Source: Synechococcus sp. PROS-7-1 (lineage in GTDB: Bacteria > Cyanobacteriota > Cyanobacteriia > PCC-6307 > Cyanobiaceae). From it: a stretch of 64,000 bases of DNA. The stretch covers positions 1,012,572 through 1,076,571 of the forward strand of contig NZ_CP047945.1 of assembly GCF_014279795.1 (NCBI RefSeq), given 5' to 3'. Under the pieces are notes generated by a model. It saw nothing but the letters and a program-made list of their open reading frames with translations. It was not told the origin of the DNA and searched no databases. Position numbers and translations under genes: made by a program. This document shows positions 41,325 through 47,936 of this stretch, one piece after another (position 1 is the first letter of the stretch; each line of letters starts with the position of its first letter).

Positions 41325-41957
41325 ATGGTCTCTGCTCCTCAGTCCGTTTCCAGCCGTCGTGACGGTTTTCTTGAGCTTCTCGAGAACAATTTTCAGAAGC
41401 GCAACCTTGTGCACCTTTCCGCGGGCAGTGTGGTGCCTTTGCTGAAGAACAGCCTCTGGCTTGTCGTGAGAGGCATGGTGAAGCTTGGTGCCGTTTCCGT
41501 GCATGGTGATGAGCTTTTACTGGGCTTGGCCGGGCCTAATGAGCCATTCGGTGAGCCTTTGAGCACCGTGGAGGCCTACGAAGCCGTCACCCTCACGGAT
41601 TGCGATCTCCTGTGCGTGACGATGGCGGAAGTCGGCGAATCGTCTGATCTCGCCAAAGCCCTTCTCGATGCTGTTGTTCTGCGTTATCGCCAATCGGAAT
41701 ACCTGCTCTCGCTTCTAGGTTTACGCCGCGTTGAAGAACGGGTTCGCGGCTTTCTTGAATTGCTGGCCCAGGATTACGGGCAGCCCTGTGATGAAGGTTT
41801 GCGCCTGAATCTTCGTTTGACCCATCAGGAGATGGCGAGCGCTTTGAGCACAACACGCGTAACAGTGACCCGAGTGATCGGCCTTCTCAGGGATGAGGGT
41901 TGGCTCAAGATTGATGCCCAGCGCCACCTTGTGATCACCCATCTGCCCAAGAAATAA
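41325..41957 (+). CDS. ptrA: Crp/Fnr-family transcription regulator, PtrA-like
   Basis: 210 residues from ATG 41325. A divergent cyclic-nucleotide-type sensor domain (about 15-125) lacks a clear cAMP-binding R-S-A motif. The HTH contains L-T-H-Q-E-M-A-S-A-L-S-T-T-R-V-T-V-T-R. In marine Synechococcus the Crp-type regulator PtrA lies close to phosphate genes and controls part of the low-phosphate response. Position directly behind pstS supports that identity. A CTTAA-containing stretch near 41246 might be a weak Pho site. Confidence 0.78.
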   Translation: MVSAPQSVSSRRDGFLELLENNFQKRNLVHLSAGSVVPLLKNSLWLVVRGMVKLGAVSVHGDELLLGLAGPNEPFGEPLSTVEAYEAVTLTDCDLLCVTMAEVGESSDLAKALLDAVVLRYRQSEYLLSLLGLRRVEERVRGFLELLAQDYGQPCDEGLRLNLRLTHQEMASALSTTRVTVTRVIGLLRDEGWLKIDAQRHLVITHLPKK

Positions 41958-42016
41958 GTCAACCGGATTGTCAGCTCGAGGGTGGGTCCCTAAAAAAGAG
42001 CTGATGGTTTAAGGCT

Positions 42017-42283
42017 TTGGCTGATTCCTCGTTTCCATTGGTTCTGTTGGCCCTGCATGCCGTGCAGGGCTATTGGTATGCAGGGCTAGTGATTGCCATT
42101 CTGTTCTCACTGTTCGGTGTGCAGACGATTGATCCGTCTGCCAGGGGGTGGTCCCACCCGTTGTTCCGTTTGGTGATCATTCCCGGCGTGTCACTGTTCT
42201 GGCCGCTCCTGCTTGTGCGTTGGGTGCGCCGTCAGGGGCCACCGCGGGAGCGCAATGCCCATCGCCTTGCCTTGCGGCCATGA
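42017..42283 (+). CDS. small membrane protein
   Basis: 88 residues from TTG 42017, with AAGG at 42011. Two predicted membrane helices (about 5-35 and 48-68) and a basic C-terminal tail (W-V-R-R-Q-G-P-P-R-E-R-N). It overlaps the next gene by ATGA. It is the first member of a four-gene membrane redox set. No family recognised. Confidence 0.65.
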   Translation: MADSSFPLVLLALHAVQGYWYAGLVIAILFSLFGVQTIDPSARGWSHPLFRLVIIPGVSLFWPLLLVRWVRRQGPPRERNAHRLALRP

Positions 42284-42795
42284 TTCGATCCCATCGCATC
42301 ACGCACAGGCGCCTGTTCCCGTTGCTTGCGGTGCTTGCACTTGTGCTCTCTGTTTCGGCCCTGGCTTTACGTCCGGCTGTTCCGGTTTCGTCGCCTGCCT
42401 CGGCCCCGCTGTACCAGTCACTCGGTTTTTCAAGTGCGCCGCTTTCGGCGTCCAGAAGCGCCCGAGTCATGGTGAATGGACATCCCGTTCTGCTTGGTTA
42501 TCAGCAGGAACCATTGGGTCAGCCAATGCTGTTGATCCAACCCCAGCACATTCAATCGGAGGCCCAGGTGCAGGTCCTGTGGACCGGCGGCGATGCCACC
42601 ACTGATGAAACGCTCCCTTCAGCGGTGTTTCTCGGTCAGCTTTCTGGTGCATCGGCCCTTGCGTTGCCCCTTCCAAGCGACTTTTCCGCGGATCGCCCCG
42701 GTCAGCTTGTATTTCGAAGCCTTCCTTTGGCTAAAACCCTCGGAACCATTGATCTGGCGGCACTTCCTTCCAATCTGTTTCAAGAGAGTCGCTGA
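42280..42795 (+). CDS. exported or membrane-anchored hypothetical protein
   Basis: 171 residues from ATG 42280 (ATGA overlap with the preceding stop). An N-terminal anchor or signal helix (about 12-32) is followed by a soluble domain without Cys, containing V-M-V-N-G-H-P-V-L-L-G-Y and W-T-G-G-D-A-T-T-D. It probably lies in the periplasm. Unknown function; it precedes the Rieske-reductase gene by 2 bp and likely works with it. Confidence 0.65.
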   Translation: MIRSHRITHRRLFPLLAVLALVLSVSALALRPAVPVSSPASAPLYQSLGFSSAPLSASRSARVMVNGHPVLLGYQQEPLGQPMLLIQPQHIQSEAQVQVLWTGGDATTDETLPSAVFLGQLSGASALALPLPSDFSADRPGQLVFRSLPLAKTLGTIDLAALPSNLFQESR

Positions 42796-42797
42796 TC

Positions 42798-43907
42798 ATG
42801 GGCCATCCCTATCAAGCTGTTCAGTGGACCCGTAAGAAGCTGATTTACGACGGCATTCTTCTGGCCCTGGTGATGGGCTACCTGGTGGTGTTCACCCAGA
42901 TCACCTATGCCCTCAATCGTGCTGTTGGCTCCGTAGCTGAATGGGAAGGGGTCGAAATCAGGGCCTACGGAAGCGCCGCCTTCATTCTTCTCAGCATCAT
43001 CCTCTGCATTGGTCCCCTCAGCCGTTTGAACAAGCGTTTTCACGTGTTGTTGTTTAACCGGCGGCACATGGGTGTCCTCGCTTTTCTGCTGGCACTGTTT
43101 CATGTGCATGGCTTCCGTTTGCCAGCTCAACCGTTTCAAGCCCTCGGACTGTCTGTTCCCAAAATTCCTTTCCAGTTCTTTGGTGCCCTGCCCTGGTACA
43201 ACGATTTCGGCGATCTCGACCCCCTTGTTTCCCTGTTCGTGGGGAATCGCCATTTCGACAGTCTCACCTTTTTCCCGTTTGAACTCCTCGGGCTTGGGGC
43301 TCTGTTGGTGATGTTCGTGATGGCGGCCACCAGCCACGACTTCTGGCTTGTGAATCTCACCCCGCCGATCTGGAAGGGAATTCATATGGCTGTGTATGTC
43401 GCCTATGCACTGCTTGTTGGACACATCCTCTTGGGTCCCCTTCAGACCAACCGTGACCCTTGGCTGACGGCTCTGGCACTCGTGTCGTTTGTGTGCGTGA
43501 TCGGGCTGCATCTCATCAGTGGCTGGCGGGAGCGCAAGGCCGATCGGTCCCTTGATGCCTCGCCGGATGCTCTCACTGTCGAGGGGTTTGTGGATGTGAT
43601 GGCGCTCGATGATCTGGAGGACGAGTGCGGCATACCGGTGGTGATCCGTGGTGAGCGCATCGCCTTGTTCCGTCAGGGCGATGCGGTCTTCGCCCTCAGC
43701 AATGTCTGCGCCCATCAAAATGGCCCTCTGGCTGATGGTCGCCTCAGCCATGGCTGTGTGGTGTGTCCCTGGCATGGCTGGGAGTACCGCGCTGAAACCG
43801 GTGTTTCCCCACCCCCGTTTGCCGAGCGTGTGCCGGTGTTCCCCGTTCGCATTCAAGAGGGCCGTGTGTTGGTAGCGCTCCAGCCTGTTCTCAACGCAGT
43901 GAGTTGA
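42798..43907 (+). CDS. ferric-reductase-like/Rieske fusion membrane protein
   Basis: 369 residues. The first 250 form about six membrane helices of the ferric reductase-like (MsrQ/YedZ-type) domain with candidate haem-ligand histidines (F-H-V-L-L, F-H-V-H-G, K-G-I-H-M). The C-terminal 100 residues are a Rieske 2Fe-2S domain with C-A-H-Q and C-P-W-H-G-W-E-Y. This suggests electron transfer between haem b in the membrane and a Rieske centre. Physiological partner unknown. Closely packed with genes on both sides. Confidence 0.8.
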   Translation: MGHPYQAVQWTRKKLIYDGILLALVMGYLVVFTQITYALNRAVGSVAEWEGVEIRAYGSAAFILLSIILCIGPLSRLNKRFHVLLFNRRHMGVLAFLLALFHVHGFRLPAQPFQALGLSVPKIPFQFFGALPWYNDFGDLDPLVSLFVGNRHFDSLTFFPFELLGLGALLVMFVMAATSHDFWLVNLTPPIWKGIHMAVYVAYALLVGHILLGPLQTNRDPWLTALALVSFVCVIGLHLISGWRERKADRSLDASPDALTVEGFVDVMALDDLEDECGIPVVIRGERIALFRQGDAVFALSNVCAHQNGPLADGRLSHGCVVCPWHGWEYRAETGVSPPPFAERVPVFPVRIQEGRVLVALQPVLNAVS

Positions 43908-43912
43908 TCGTC

Positions 43913-44671
43913 ATGTCACAGCGCAAGTCACCCTTCTTTGTTCATTACCTACCACTGCCGCCGGAACTGCGTGCCTTTGTGATTTGGCTTGTGTTCGGCC
44001 TCAGTGTTCTCACATTGATCCTGTCGATTGTGGTTCCAGCCCTGCAGGACCAGTTCGGCCCAGGCTGGCGGCAACCAACCCGGGAGATCAGTGGCCTGCT
44101 CCTCGATGGTCCTGGTGCAGCGCAAGTGCTCATCCCCAGGCCTGAGGGTTCCGGCGAGAGTGCTTATTCCAGGGTTTTGCTGGCGAGCACCCGTAAGCTC
44201 GCCCCCCCTGCATCGGTGCTGGACAAGACCGGTCAATGGGTGAAGCTTCGCGGGGCCCTGTTTTCCAATGGCACCCTGACCGTGATGAATACCAATCGCG
44301 CCACAGTCCTGGCTGCACCCCTTTCGGCCCAACCGGTTCCCACCGAGCCGAATTCCCTGGGGACTTTCACGCTCAAAGGCGAGATCATCGATGCCAAATG
44401 TTTTTCCGGTGTGATGAAGCCCGGTGCTGGTAAGACCCATCTCGGTTGTGCCGTCCGCTGCATCAGTGGAGGAGTGCCTGCCATGTTCCATACCCGTAAT
44501 GCACAGGATCAAGAACTGGATCTTCTTCTTGTTGATGAGAAGGGTGATGCTGTCAACGACAGGGTGCTTGATCGCGTCGCCCTGCCACTGGAGATCCGTG
44601 GGGAAGTGCTGAAGTTGAATGACCTCCTGTTACTGCGTGCCGACCCTTCCACATACCGCTCGCTGCTTTGA
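43913..44671 (+). CDS. membrane-anchored Cys-rich protein of the Rieske module
   Basis: 252 residues from ATG 43913; a TTG at 43904 overlaps the previous stop. An N-terminal membrane helix (about 20-45) is followed by an extracytoplasmic region. Its conserved-looking core is D-A-K-C-F-S-G-V-M-K-P-G-A-G-K-T-H-L-G-C and A-V-R-C-I-S-G-G-V-P, with three cysteines and a His that could bind haem, copper or an iron-sulfur cluster. I recall similar motifs next to Rieske/ferric-reductase genes elsewhere, but no function is known to me. Confidence 0.7.
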   Translation: MSQRKSPFFVHYLPLPPELRAFVIWLVFGLSVLTLILSIVVPALQDQFGPGWRQPTREISGLLLDGPGAAQVLIPRPEGSGESAYSRVLLASTRKLAPPASVLDKTGQWVKLRGALFSNGTLTVMNTNRATVLAAPLSAQPVPTEPNSLGTFTLKGEIIDAKCFSGVMKPGAGKTHLGCAVRCISGGVPAMFHTRNAQDQELDLLLVDEKGDAVNDRVLDRVALPLEIRGEVLKLNDLLLLRADPSTYRSLL

Positions 44672-44704
44672 ACGTCTTCGTTGTCTCGTCTTCCCATTGA
44701 GTCC

Positions 44705-45703
44705 ATGCTTTCTCCCCAGCTTGAGGTTCTTTTCTCGCGATCTCTGGCGTCACTGCGCCCTGTGATTGTTTCGTTCCTGATCGTTCATGCCATGAGTCTC
44801 AGTGGCGGACTCGATCAGGCGTTGTCACCTTGCAACGTGCTGTTAGTCGGTAATTTCTGTGCCGCCATGCTCGTGCTCACGTTGTTCAAGCCGGCAGCCA
44901 TCCTTAGGGAAATTTCAGAGCTTCCGTGGTCGATCAAAGGGTTGATGTTGCTGGATGGTGCTCTGACAGCGCTTATTTCAGCTTTGATTTTCACAGGTCT
45001 CGAGTACACCACTGCCAGCAATGCCATCCTTATCGGCCGTATGGCTCCGGTTCTGTACGCATTAATTGGTGCTCTTGCTCTGGGCACCGTGCTGGCAAGG
45101 CCTGTTTGGATTGGTAACGGCTTCATCATTGTCGGCGTGTTGATGATTGTGTTGTTCAGTACCGGTGGCAATGTCAATAAAGGCGACGCAATGATGATCG
45201 CTTCCACATTTGTGTTCTCGATCGTGTCGATCATTGGCAAAAAGCTGGTGTCAAGGAAGATCTCCATGCCAGTGTTGCTCTTTGCGAGGAATCTGTCCGG
45301 GAGTGTAATTTTCTTTTTTGTTGCGATCTATTTGTTTGGTGTGCATCATTTCGCCGATGTTTTCGCTGGATCTCTTTGGGTTGTAATGCTTGTTTATGCT
45401 GGCTTGATCATCGTTGTTTCCCAGTGGCTTTGGTATAAAGCGTCTGCTGAATTGAACTCCGTGAGTATGGGACGTTGGGCTTCGCCTGCTCCACTTGTTG
45501 GCCTTACATTCGCCTACTTTGTGAACAACAACATCCCTGACAGCAAGCAGTTAATCGCAGCGGTTGTCATTCTGGTGGGAATCGCTATTACCACCTTCGG
45601 GAAGCCAGCACCTGTGGCGCAAGTTGCTGAAGATAAGCGTGAAACCAGCAGCAAGGCTGATTTGTTGATGCAAGGGGACAACGTCGTTTCGCCGTCCGTA
45701 TGA
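44705..45703 (+). CDS. EamA/DMT-family transporter
   Basis: 332 residues from ATG 44705; an in-frame start at 44681 is possible. Ten predicted membrane helices in two EamA repeats, with A-S-N-A-I-L-I-G-R-M-A-P-V and W-L-W-Y-K-A-S-A-E-L-N as repeat signatures. Drug/metabolite transporters of this type export amino acids or small metabolites. Base composition in its second half looks more AT-rich than the neighbours. The stop overlaps the ATP-grasp/acetyltransferase gene by 4 bp, suggesting export of that enzyme's product. Confidence 0.82.
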   Translation: MLSPQLEVLFSRSLASLRPVIVSFLIVHAMSLSGGLDQALSPCNVLLVGNFCAAMLVLTLFKPAAILREISELPWSIKGLMLLDGALTALISALIFTGLEYTTASNAILIGRMAPVLYALIGALALGTVLARPVWIGNGFIIVGVLMIVLFSTGGNVNKGDAMMIASTFVFSIVSIIGKKLVSRKISMPVLLFARNLSGSVIFFFVAIYLFGVHHFADVFAGSLWVVMLVYAGLIIVVSQWLWYKASAELNSVSMGRWASPAPLVGLTFAYFVNNNIPDSKQLIAAVVILVGIAITTFGKPAPVAQVAEDKRETSSKADLLMQGDNVVSPSV

Positions 45704-47208
45704 CGGTGGCCATTGGTGTGATCTGCGATGCCCTGGCGTATCGCGATCAATCCGGATCTGACGTGATCCGCTTCTATCAGGCGTTGGCTAGAGATCAGGA
45801 GTTTGAGTCGTTTCACCTCCCTCTGCTCGACTTGCGAGCGTCGTTGATGAGGGGTGATACCAACAGGCTTCCTGCACTTCGTCTCAGCGATCGAGCTGCA
45901 GCCACCCTCTGGACGGCGGAGCCTCTCAGGGATCTGCAGCTTCTGCCTGCAGAGCGCTTTGATCTGCTGTTTTGCAGAACGCTGAAGCCGTTCCCTCCCC
46001 GTCACCTCGAATTGCTGCAGCAGCTGGAGCCACTCACGCGCTTTCTGAACCGGCCCTCCAGCAAGATCAGGCAGCTGGCTTCTTGGTTCCTGGCTGATAT
46101 TGCCGGATCCTTTATGCCTGCGTCGCGGTTGATTCGCTCGTCGGAGGCCCTGGCCGACGTTCTTGAGTTCTGGGGCGACATCGTGATCAAGCGACCGAAC
46201 AGCACCCAAGGCCGTGGTGTGTCCCGCTTGCGTCGATCCGGTGGGGGTGTGCAGTTGAGTCAGGGGTTACGCCAGGTCGAGACCTTTCCCTCTCTGGAGC
46301 CTGTGATGGGTTTGATCGGTGATGTTGCTGAGGAATGGTTGGTCATGCCGTTCCTTCCTGGCACTTGCAAGGGAGATAAACGCGTTCTGGTTGTGGATGG
46401 GGAGGTCGTCGCCGGCTATCGCCGGCGATCGCGGAGTGGTCATTGGATCAACAATGTCTCCTTTGATGCCGACTGTGAACTGGAAGCGGTCTCAGAGGAC
46501 GAGCGTTGCGTTGTTGCAGCCACGGCCCCGGCCTATCGATCGATGGGGCTGCGGGTGCTCGGTTACGACTTTCTCACTGGTGACACGGGAGAGCCCGTGG
46601 TGAGCGAGATCAATGTGGGCAACATTGGCGGTTTTTCCAGGGTGGCTGAGCTGGGTGGTCCTGATGCCATGCAGCAATTGTTGGGATGGATGCGGATTTT
46701 CGGTCAGTCCGAAGGCGACCCGTTGATCGAGTCAGCTCAGAATCACCATGCGCCAGCGATGGCTGCGATTTACCAGCAGTCGGTTGATCAGGGCGGCGTC
46801 ACCATGGACGCCGGCTTGATTACGGCAGAGTCCTTCCGGCAGCGGTTGAGCGCCTGCGGAGAGAGGTCTGGCTTCTGGGTGCTCACCCTGGGCGGGGAGG
46901 TGCTGGGGTGGACGGAGTTGCGGGCTTATTCGCCGCGTTGGGGTTATCGCTTCACGGCAGAAACATCAACCTATGTGCATGCGTCTGCACGGGGAAGGGG
47001 ATTGGGTTCCAAGCTTCAGAGCTTTGTGATTGGCAAAGCGCGGGAGATGCGCTATCGGCATTTGGTGGCCAAAGTTGTGTCCAGGAATGACCAGAGTGTG
47101 GCGTTTCATCTGAGGCATGGTTTTGAGCATGTCGGCATTCAGAAAGAGGTGGGATTTCTCGGAAATTCGTGGCACGATGTTGTGATCCTTCAGTGTTTGT
47201 TGGTTTGA
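45700..47208 (+). CDS. ATP-grasp ligase fused to GNAT acetyltransferase
   Basis: 502 residues. The N-terminal 345 or so follow glutathione-synthetase/RimK-like ATP-grasp ligases: P-S-S-K-I-R, I-V-I-K-R-P-N-S-T-Q-G-R-G-V, D-K-R-V-L-V-V-D-G-E and E-I-N-V-G-N-I-G-G-F. The C-terminal 150 resemble phosphinothricin-type N-acetyltransferases (S-A-R-G-R-G-L-G-S-K-L, H-L-R-H-G-F-E-H-V-G, W-H-D-V-V-I-L-Q). One protein could thus form an amide bond and acetylate an amine. Substrates unknown. Located between an exporter and a cupin dioxygenase. Confidence 0.82.
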   Translation: MTVAIGVICDALAYRDQSGSDVIRFYQALARDQEFESFHLPLLDLRASLMRGDTNRLPALRLSDRAAATLWTAEPLRDLQLLPAERFDLLFCRTLKPFPPRHLELLQQLEPLTRFLNRPSSKIRQLASWFLADIAGSFMPASRLIRSSEALADVLEFWGDIVIKRPNSTQGRGVSRLRRSGGGVQLSQGLRQVETFPSLEPVMGLIGDVAEEWLVMPFLPGTCKGDKRVLVVDGEVVAGYRRRSRSGHWINNVSFDADCELEAVSEDERCVVAATAPAYRSMGLRVLGYDFLTGDTGEPVVSEINVGNIGGFSRVAELGGPDAMQQLLGWMRIFGQSEGDPLIESAQNHHAPAMAAIYQQSVDQGGVTMDAGLITAESFRQRLSACGERSGFWVLTLGGEVLGWTELRAYSPRWGYRFTAETSTYVHASARGRGLGSKLQSFVIGKAREMRYRHLVAKVVSRNDQSVAFHLRHGFEHVGIQKEVGFLGNSWHDVVILQCLLV

Positions 47209-47209
47209 G

Positions 47210-47881
47210 ATGGCTGTGCCTGGAACAGCGCTTGGCATGTCTCGGCGTCTACAAGCGCTAATTGCATCAATTGGTGAACAGCCTCCCTCGAGCCTTGCCC
47301 AACTTGAGCGCCGCGTTACTGATGCTGGATTGGTTGAGCAGGATCTTTTGCCATGGGCAGAATTCCATCACCCTTTGGAAGATAGTTATGGGCGGCGATT
47401 GGTCTGGAAATCTGATTTTGTTGAGCTCATGGTGATGAGCTGGATCCCTGGTGATTTCAGCGCAATCCATGACCATGGTACGGCTCACTGGGGAGTCGTT
47501 CAGTCTTTTGGTCCTGCAACGCATTCGTTGTTCAGGCTTAATGGATCACAGCTTGAATTTGAGCGTCAAAGTGACTACTACCCTGGTCAGATTCAAACAG
47601 TTGATCATCGCCTGATTCATCAGATGGGCAACGCCAGCAGCAATCCTTTTGTGAGTTTGCATGTTTATGCGGCTCTCCAGCCATTGGCCACCATCACCGC
47701 CAATGCCCGTGTATTCGATGTGGTGGAAGGGGTAATCCAGTTCACTGATGGAGGCGTGTTCTTTGCCTTGCCTGACAGTCAGGTGAAACGTCAGATCACG
47801 GGACTGAGGGCCAAGTCCTCGCTCGTCTCCCATCAACGTCGGTTGCGGGATGCGCGTCTGCAAGTGATGGCCCACGCCTGA
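47210..47881 (+). CDS. cysteine-dioxygenase-like cupin protein
   Basis: 223 residues from ATG 47210 (a second Met at 47237). The cupin motif S-A-I-H-D-H-G-T-A-H-W-G supplies two histidine iron ligands, and a later H-V-Y-A-A supplies the third, as in type I cysteine/thiol dioxygenases. The 3-His pattern without the cupin Glu fits that group. The substrate could be cysteine or another thiol. It starts one base after the preceding stop and closes the gene set before tRNA-Pro. Confidence 0.78.
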   Translation: MAVPGTALGMSRRLQALIASIGEQPPSSLAQLERRVTDAGLVEQDLLPWAEFHHPLEDSYGRRLVWKSDFVELMVMSWIPGDFSAIHDHGTAHWGVVQSFGPATHSLFRLNGSQLEFERQSDYYPGQIQTVDHRLIHQMGNASSNPFVSLHVYAALQPLATITANARVFDVVEGVIQFTDGGVFFALPDSQVKRQITGLRAKSSLVSHQRRLRDARLQVMAHA

Positions 47882-47883
47882 AC

Positions 47884-47908
47884 AAAAAAAATCCCTCCGT
47901 AGAGGGAT
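47884..47908 (-). terminator. intrinsic terminator behind tRNA-Pro
   Basis: On the minus strand the perfect 7-bp stem ATCCCTC/GAGGGAT (47891-47897 with 47902-47908) has a 4-nt loop. It is followed by seven T residues (complement of 47884-47890). It lies 28 bp past the tRNA 3' end. Confidence 0.88.
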
Positions 47909-47936
47909 GAAATGCCCTGAAAAGGCGACGGTGAAA

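Follow-up and report, generated by a model that had tools for sequence, protein, structure and literature searches.

Operons that combine a cupin, an ATP-grasp enzyme, a Rieske protein and an efflux transporter have been described by Iyer et al. 2010 (PMC2922099), in passages of which they are predicted to yield a secreted modified amino acid or peptide. A second point of reference is the cupin SbzM, which, according to passages of two reports, can turn cysteine into a sulfonamide and has relatives beside ATP-grasp genes in actinomycetes (PMC6331615, PMC9113183). Passages of a third (PMC10703444) place a cysteine dioxygenase in MGII and find taurine-metabolism genes enriched in Synechococcus. 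Here, we analysed 64,000 nucleotides of Synechococcus sp. PROS-7-1 (NZ_CP047945.1, positions 1,012,572 to 1,076,571; hereafter the window, to which all unprefixed coordinates refer), from a genome of 2.57 Mb in one contig. It holds a seven-gene operon encoding an ATP-grasp/acetyltransferase fusion, a cysteine-dioxygenase-type cupin, a putative exporter and four further membrane or membrane-anchored proteins. This unit is not described in the available passages of PMC9113183, PMC10703444, PMC9502191, PMC2922099 and PMC6331615, and no description of the gene set was found in open-licence PubMed Central (PMC); an amidoligase paper by Iyer and Aravind from 2009 may mention part of it. On balance, we favour the reading that the operon is self-contained, making and exporting a cysteine amide or dipeptide that is N-acetylated and S-oxidised, and that in most hosts it is partnered by a transmembrane cassette for electron transfer.

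The preliminary description of this DNA had recognised three genes, for exporter, fusion and cupin. Their open reading frames all lie on the plus strand, at 44681/44705-45703 (EamA), 45700-47208 (502 aa) and 47210-47881 (223 aa), and their reported tight packing, namely, a 4-bp overlap between EamA and fusion followed by a 1-bp gap between fusion and cupin, is confirmed. The unit does not, however, end there: four more upstream genes also belong to it, giving an operon at about 42017-47881 in the order C5, F5, FRR, F4, EamA, fusion and cupin, with spacings of -4, 2, 5, 33, -4 and 1 bp. Its features are the following:

42017..42283 (+), C5, small membrane protein of about 88 aa, from a profile of eight homologues (E 2.4e-28)
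42280..42795 (+), F5, protein with one transmembrane helix, start ATG at 42280 in an ATGA overlap with C5
42798..43907 (+), FRR, ferric-reductase-like (heme b) membrane protein with a C-terminal Rieske [2Fe-2S] domain, from Pfam
43913..44671 (+), F4, one transmembrane helix and two OB-like domains, from a motif and an AlphaFold2 model
44705..45703 (+), EamA/DMT-family transporter, putative exporter (Pfam PF00892), overlapping the fusion by 4 bp
45700..46707 (+), N-terminal ATP-grasp ligase domain of the fusion, residues 1-336, glutathione-synthetase fold
46708..47208 (+), C-terminal GNAT domain of the fusion, residues 337-502, phosphinothricin-acetyltransferase-like
47210..47881 (+), cysteine-dioxygenase-type cupin (PF05995) with a conserved C-terminal extension
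41951..47932 (strand not applicable), insertion interval, from blastn against relatives with an empty site

C5 had been missed by open reading frame calling, masked by a longer frame that extends into F5; its TTG start is a guess within a stop-to-stop frame from 42005. F5 matched no Pfam family, and EamA scored 68.8 bits in Pfam (cut-off 28.2). A PADLOC search with EamA, fusion and cupin gave no match to a defence system at E 0.01.

Of 31 genomes of the genus searched, six have the fusion at full length (E 1e-110 or better); at E 1e-3, 28 matched, and in 22 of these the match was shorter and fell mostly on a gene resembling glutathione synthetase. In a search of the family at E 1e-40, 7 of 251 genomes had the fusion. 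Together, both searches gave eight genomes, and all eight carry the seven genes in the same order, with a C5 homologue detected by profile at every locus; in one of them (G011) codon 104 of the fusion is a stop. A fusion without its neighbours, which the preliminary description had named, if seen in most genomes, as one of two observations that would speak against a pathway, was not found among these eight, each of which carries the whole operon. All seven genes are also present in Synechococcus WH7803 (L042), whose fusion and that of the window share 88% protein identity.

The eight operons occupy four chromosomal sites (the window with L035-L037; L038 with L039; L040; L041). For the empty-site comparison, the window was aligned by blastn with L183, L184 and L185. 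In G019, G020 and G028 the match to the upstream Crp-family gene ends 70-135 bp before the match on the tRNA-Pro side starts, and the interval at about 41951-47932 is therefore an insertion. In a close relative, G004, the alignment breaks off 20 bases into F5 and resumes at codon 137 of the cupin, and the remnants of both genes are recognisable but decayed; G004 once had the unit and then lost it. The seven genes thus move as a block, as is shown by relatives with an empty site and by one with the decayed scar of a deletion. Upstream of the operon in the window lie genes for a PBP-superfamily protein and a Crp-family regulator, which we take to be pstS and ptrA; a phosphate-regulated function, which these would suggest, was rejected because the operon has different neighbours at its other sites.

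Two further genes were noted at these sites. First, a circularly permuted ATP-grasp gene overlaps the 3' end of the cupin gene in three of the eight loci, at two sites (L038:3990-5462 (-), L039:4435-5907 (-) and L041:3872-5347 (-)), suggesting a further ligation step. Second, a PRTase-CE gene (PF24390) borders the operon at two different sites: it lies upstream in L038 (11311-12285 (-)) and L039 (11767-12741 (-)), and in L040 (4529-5545 (+)) it converges with the cupin end.

Beyond picocyanobacteria, a scan of a named genome collection with the ligase as query gave 43 loci in 41 genomes (counted by accession prefix), including filamentous cyanobacteria and metagenome-assembled genomes (MAGs) labelled Nitrospirota, Myxococcota, Chromatiaceae, Planctomycetota and Verrucomicrobiota. 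Near the ligase, a GNAT gene is found at 25 loci (at L054 as a fragment), the cupin at 29, EamA at 29, FRR at 18, F4 at 18 and F5 at 16; at the 24 loci that extend 5 kb or more in both directions, the corresponding counts are 17, 18, 18, 13, 13 and 13. At L080 the ligase frame is split in two. Since the set recurs in many genomes, the association of EamA, fusion and cupin is not due to chance. The fusion itself, as proposed in the preliminary description, stands as regards its ATP-grasp and GNAT domains, both confirmed by Pfam, but as a single protein it was seen in picocyanobacteria only; elsewhere, ligase and GNAT are separate neighbouring genes wherever both were seen.

Contig ends and dispersal explain many of the absences of partners at these loci. 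First, the cupin is lacking at 14 loci, and 7 of the 12 genomes searched have a strong cupin (two of these, G603 and G606, had been counted before, since L058 and L068 come from them); no cupin was found at E 1e-6 in the genomes of L051, L067, L069, L071 and L081. Second, the 16 genomes of the 18 loci lacking GNAT were all searched, with eight strong matches (E 1e-69 or better), five weak ones (about 1e-25 to 1e-27) and no match in three. Third, all 23 genomes of the 25 loci lacking F4 were searched, and 12 have F4 elsewhere (E 2e-92 or better). By hand count over the 41 genomes, this amounts to 34 with the cupin (two not searched), 33 with GNAT (at the locus or strong elsewhere) and 30 with F4. 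Five loci on two separate branches of the ligase tree, L051 with L067 and L071 with L075 and L081, have no partner at the locus; in this last branch, the ligase lies beside an asparaginase_2-type gene at L081:8705-9754 (-) and L075:8751-9683 (-), called by Pfam on the L075 copy, and perhaps belongs to a related but different pathway.

In a sample of 386 cyanobacterial genomes, the ligase-GNAT profile at E 1e-30 matched six (G318 by GNAT alone), F4 was found in five, and the cupin profile at E 1e-6 matched 21, five strongly (E 7e-81 or better) and 16 weakly (best 2.5e-12), the latter presumably ordinary cysteine dioxygenase (CDO) relatives. The two-domain ligase-GNAT, F4 and the strong cupin occupy the same five genomes. 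For each of the 21 pairs of genes, moreover, sequence distances are correlated (r 0.75-0.93, Mantel p 0.001).

Several loci carry additional genes. In MAGs labelled Nitrospirota, Myxococcota and Chromatiaceae (L070:5966-11979, L072, L073 and L077), the unit continues into a thiamine-pyrophosphate-enzyme/Rieske fusion, with a glutamate-synthase/Rieske fusion in some of them and a carbonic anhydrase in L070; neighbours were identified by Pfam in L070 and by clustering in the other three. A second, different ATP-grasp gene (PF02655) adjoins the ligase in an alphaproteobacterial MAG (L067:11073-11987 (+)) and lies about 8 kb from it in Moorena (L059:18841-19743 (-) and L060:19043-19945 (-), with Pfam run on the L059 copy).

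The membrane cassette C5-F5-FRR-F4 has the marks of an electron-transfer system. FRR scored 50.6 bits for Ferric_reduct and 54.3 bits for Rieske in Pfam, and the Rieske ligands C304, H306, C323 and H326 are present in all 23 aligned homologues. F4 carries the motif D-x-K-C-x2-G-x-M-x-P-G-x4-H-x2-C-x2-RCI-x-GG-x-P in 23 of 23 homologues. Its AlphaFold2 model (mean predicted local distance difference test, pLDDT, of 85.3) matched only common OB folds (best Z 8.1, model residues 50-134), which is uninformative on function; the best Foldseek hit had E 4.3e-4 with a TM-score below 0.3, the fold searches barely covered the second, Cys-bearing domain, and no PDB sequence matched better than E 0.31. 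Hydropathy and charge weakly suggest that the F4 domains lie outside the membrane and the Rieske domain of FRR inside. Five Rhizobium plasmid records match F4, and the two inspected for neighbours (L092:6503-8747 and L093:6295-8531) encode C5, a short F5-like protein, FRR and F4 in the same order as the operon. Here, C5 matches at E 1.3e-10 and 2.4e-8 and F5 weakly, at E 0.013 and 0.053; the Rhizobium F4 has Leu instead of Arg ahead of the last Cys of the motif, and in the plasmid annotation the cassette proteins appear as hypothetical or Rieske-domain proteins. Since the Rhizobium cassette stands alone, the operon probably arose when a membrane cassette of older origin was joined to a biosynthetic core. 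Other genes were observed near such cassettes, namely, in the Rhizobium plasmids, a thiamine-pyrophosphate enzyme encoded on the opposite strand some 3 kb from the cassette, and DM13-like electron-transfer proteins at three cyanobacterial loci (L053:3025-3426, L056:4409-4834 and L076:14217-14660; by Pfam in L056 and by similarity in the other two).

A cassette of this kind could also be read as the centre of the system, the exported product being a metallophore or extracellular redox shuttle that binds or reduces copper or iron, with FRR-F4 as its dedicated transmembrane reductase. The pairing of a heme-Rieske protein with a Cys/His protein that probably faces the periplasm, at 18 of the 43 loci and with F4 elsewhere in 12 of the 23 genomes whose locus lacks it, is in line with this idea, but the seven genes include neither a TonB receptor nor a metal transporter, and the core occurs without F4. 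We therefore regard it as unlikely, while leaving it some room. Somewhat less probable still is its fuller form, in which an N-acetylated, sulfur-oxidised cysteine dipeptide would serve as an extracellular metal ligand or redox shuttle recycled by the Rieske-heme-OB reductase, a new type of secreted-metabolite system.

The cupin points back to the thiol chemistry of the favoured cysteine amide or dipeptide. Pfam assigns it to CDO_I (PF05995; 35.3 bits, cut-off 23), and H87, H89 and H137 (iron), R62 (carboxylate), Y60 and H151 are kept in 34 of 35 aligned cupins, the lone exception being an 80-residue fragment without that region; the iron ligands, whose loss the preliminary description had named as speaking against a pathway, are thus present. 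Y153 is found in 35 of 35, and S149 is Ser in 32 and Thr in three. For the roles of these residues we presume those of CDO1, whose iron ligands we take to be H86, H88 and H140 and whose substrate-binding residue we take to be Arg60. The Cys of the animal Cys-Tyr crosslink is not conserved, with Trp at the CDO1 Cys93 position in 34 of 35 cupins; Cys93 is not known to be required in bacterial CDOs, and the Trp was therefore not used to exclude membership. An extension of about 70 residues past the CDO-aligned region has T163, R167, F169, Q177 and T179 nearly invariant. By analogy with CDO as we presume it to work, the retained R62 suggests a substrate with a free carboxylate, and hence free cysteine or a close analogue.

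A cupin acting on cysteine need not, however, produce a sulfinate. If it resembled SbzM of altemicidin biosynthesis, L-cysteine would become a sulfonamide or a reactive sulfonate-enamine, and ligase and GNAT would build a sulfonamide amide. SbzM acts on free L-cysteine in passages of PMC6331615, and some of its homologues cluster with ATP-grasp enzymes in those of PMC9113183; yet the homologues given in the latter come from actinomycetes, and none of the six proteins scanned with Pfam matches the family of the aldehyde dehydrogenase that partners SbzM; C5, the remaining protein, has about 88 aa. With SbzM and our cupin set side by side by description only, we judge this route quite improbable. 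The same holds for a simple overflow valve, in which the genes would detoxify and export excess cysteine or thiol and make no functional product. A CDO-type cupin alongside a putative EamA exporter would suit it, E. coli EamA being an exporter of cysteine and O-acetylserine, but disposal needs neither an ATP-spending peptide ligase, the query member common to the whole set, nor a redox cassette. As a separate observation, a homocysteine-biosynthesis enzyme (PF01837, by Pfam on L060) adjoins the cupin at L060:13269-14468 (-) and three other Moorena loci; this might hint at homocysteine as the thiol, although the four loci are close relatives.

For the fusion, Pfam detected GSH-S_ATP (47.2 bits, cut-off 23) and RimK (40, cut-off 21) in the N-terminal part and Acetyltransf_1 (52.5, cut-off 20.7) in the C-terminal part, and the structural model has a mean pLDDT of 90.9. 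The top fold match of the ligase domain is E. coli glutathione synthetase (1gsa; Z 29.6, root-mean-square deviation (rmsd) 2.6, 303 aligned), with RimK also among the matches. When 17 ligases were compared with 16 of 24 extracted GshB sequences from the same genus, K164, D226, R228, E235, N252, D290, E303 and N305 proved common to both, leaving the ATP/Mg residues intact, whereas the substrate loop is of the EINxGNIGG type in the 17 ligases and EINVTSPTG in GshB, and an RTLKPF stretch replaces RKDPP. Glutathione synthesis was rejected: the domain misses the NCBIfam cut-offs (TIGR01380, 54.8 versus 299.05; PRK05246, 62.0 versus 272) and its substrate loop differs; the genome of the window has a separate GshB-like gene. 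The GNAT domain has a PAT-like fold (Z about 23-25, rmsd 1.4-2.0, about 163 residues aligned) and a conserved R-x2-Y-x4-E-x3-Y motif, also present in the PAT proteins of P. syringae and S. meliloti but missing from some relatives of known structure; it falls under the NCBIfam equivalog cut-offs for ArsN1a (95 versus 170) and PAT (61.6 versus 300). PAT-family enzymes act on alpha-amines of acidic amino acids bearing a tetrahedral group, and cysteine sulfinate would qualify. RimK-type ATP-grasp enzymes can modify proteins, so ligase and GNAT might instead modify a protein, perhaps part of the cassette, but with glutathione synthetase, a small-molecule ligase, as the best fold and sequence match, EamA near the ligase at 29 of 43 loci and a core that occurs without F4, this is very improbable indeed.

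Returning to an exported, modified cysteine product, the following sequence of events can be drawn. The cupin would make a sulfinate by oxidising free L-cysteine or a closely similar thiol amino acid; the GNAT would transfer an acetyl group to the alpha-amine of an acidic amino acid with a tetrahedral group, for example cysteine sulfinate; the ligase, using ATP, would join the sulfinate's carboxylate to a second amine; and EamA would export the resulting N-acetylated cysteine-derived amide or dipeptide. Electrons would pass from a cytoplasmic donor to the Rieske centre, then to heme b and probably on to F4, the Cys/His protein on the outer side of the membrane, whose target could be the exported product or a metal that this product binds. 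Family membership is the basis on which ligation, acetylation and thiol oxidation are predicted; the order of steps, the product and the role of the cassette are what we infer. Substrates are probably free amino acids, because no ribosomal precursor fits the operon; a ribosomally synthesised and post-translationally modified peptide was rejected on the same ground, with gaps of at most 33 bp leaving no room for a precursor, and a precursor gene elsewhere would still fit.

Several points weigh against this scheme. F4 was not found in 11 of the 23 genomes whose locus lacks it, and the cassette is therefore not essential to the core; these include cyanobacterial MAGs (L066, L068), Acaryochloris (L050), Leptolyngbya (L058) and the three planctomycete/verrucomicrobial MAGs, whose loci all have ligase, EamA and cupin, with GNAT in two (L062, L079). 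Conversely, the L092 and L093 cassettes have no annotated ligase, GNAT or cupin in the stretch shown. Shared ancestry alone would yield correlated gene distances, and ATP-grasp and GNAT enzymes could act on proteins. All non-cyanobacterial loci, finally, are MAGs whose taxon labels may be wrong; that they form their own branches in the ligase tree argues against simple contamination, short of excluding it. Overall, the operon is real, conserved and mobile, and its pathway logic is well supported. The small-molecule pathway first proposed for this DNA has withstood both observations chosen to challenge it, the loss of neighbours and of iron ligands, but its unit has grown to seven genes, its fusion was seen in picocyanobacteria only, and its product and export are what we infer.

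A mobile, multi-phylum pathway in a culturable picocyanobacterium is accessible to genetics, as Synechococcus WH7803 can be knocked out, and the operon exposes a membrane electron-transfer cassette that exists alone in Rhizobium. If the operon makes a sulfinate peptide or a ligand for metals, this would be relevant to organic sulfur in the sea and to the question of which compounds are the copper ligands of cyanobacteria; were it to act as a metal ligand or shuttle, the product of WH7803-type Synechococcus would be a candidate part of the extracellular copper ligands of marine cyanobacteria.

Several known systems stand close to this one. First, the cupin has in common with human CDO1 and B. 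subtilis CDO the three iron His, the carboxylate Arg, the active-site Tyr and the S/T-x-H-x-Y motif, and differs in the Trp for Cys93, the C-terminal extension and its partner genes. Second, the ligase domain has the fold and ATP-grasp residues of GshB (PDB 1gsa), and the GNAT domain the fold of PAT and ArsN1, here fused or linked to a peptide ligase. N-acetylglutaminylglutamine synthetase also has GNAT and ATP-grasp parts in one protein; the likeness is one of architecture, as we presume it, since the fusion scores only 15.4 bits against its TIGR03103 cut-off of 569. Third, in MsrPQ a ferric-reductase-like heme protein is assumed to feed a periplasmic partner; FRR, by contrast, has an added Rieske domain, falls under the MsrQ cut-off (32.8 versus 130 bits) and belongs to an operon without a molybdoenzyme. 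As a whole, the operon follows the same logic as those in the passages of Iyer et al. 2010 (PMC2922099), but whereas the cupin there is fused to a heme-oxygenase-like domain, ours stands alone, with 223 aa and CDO_I only, and is joined by a PAT-like GNAT and a heme-Rieske membrane protein.

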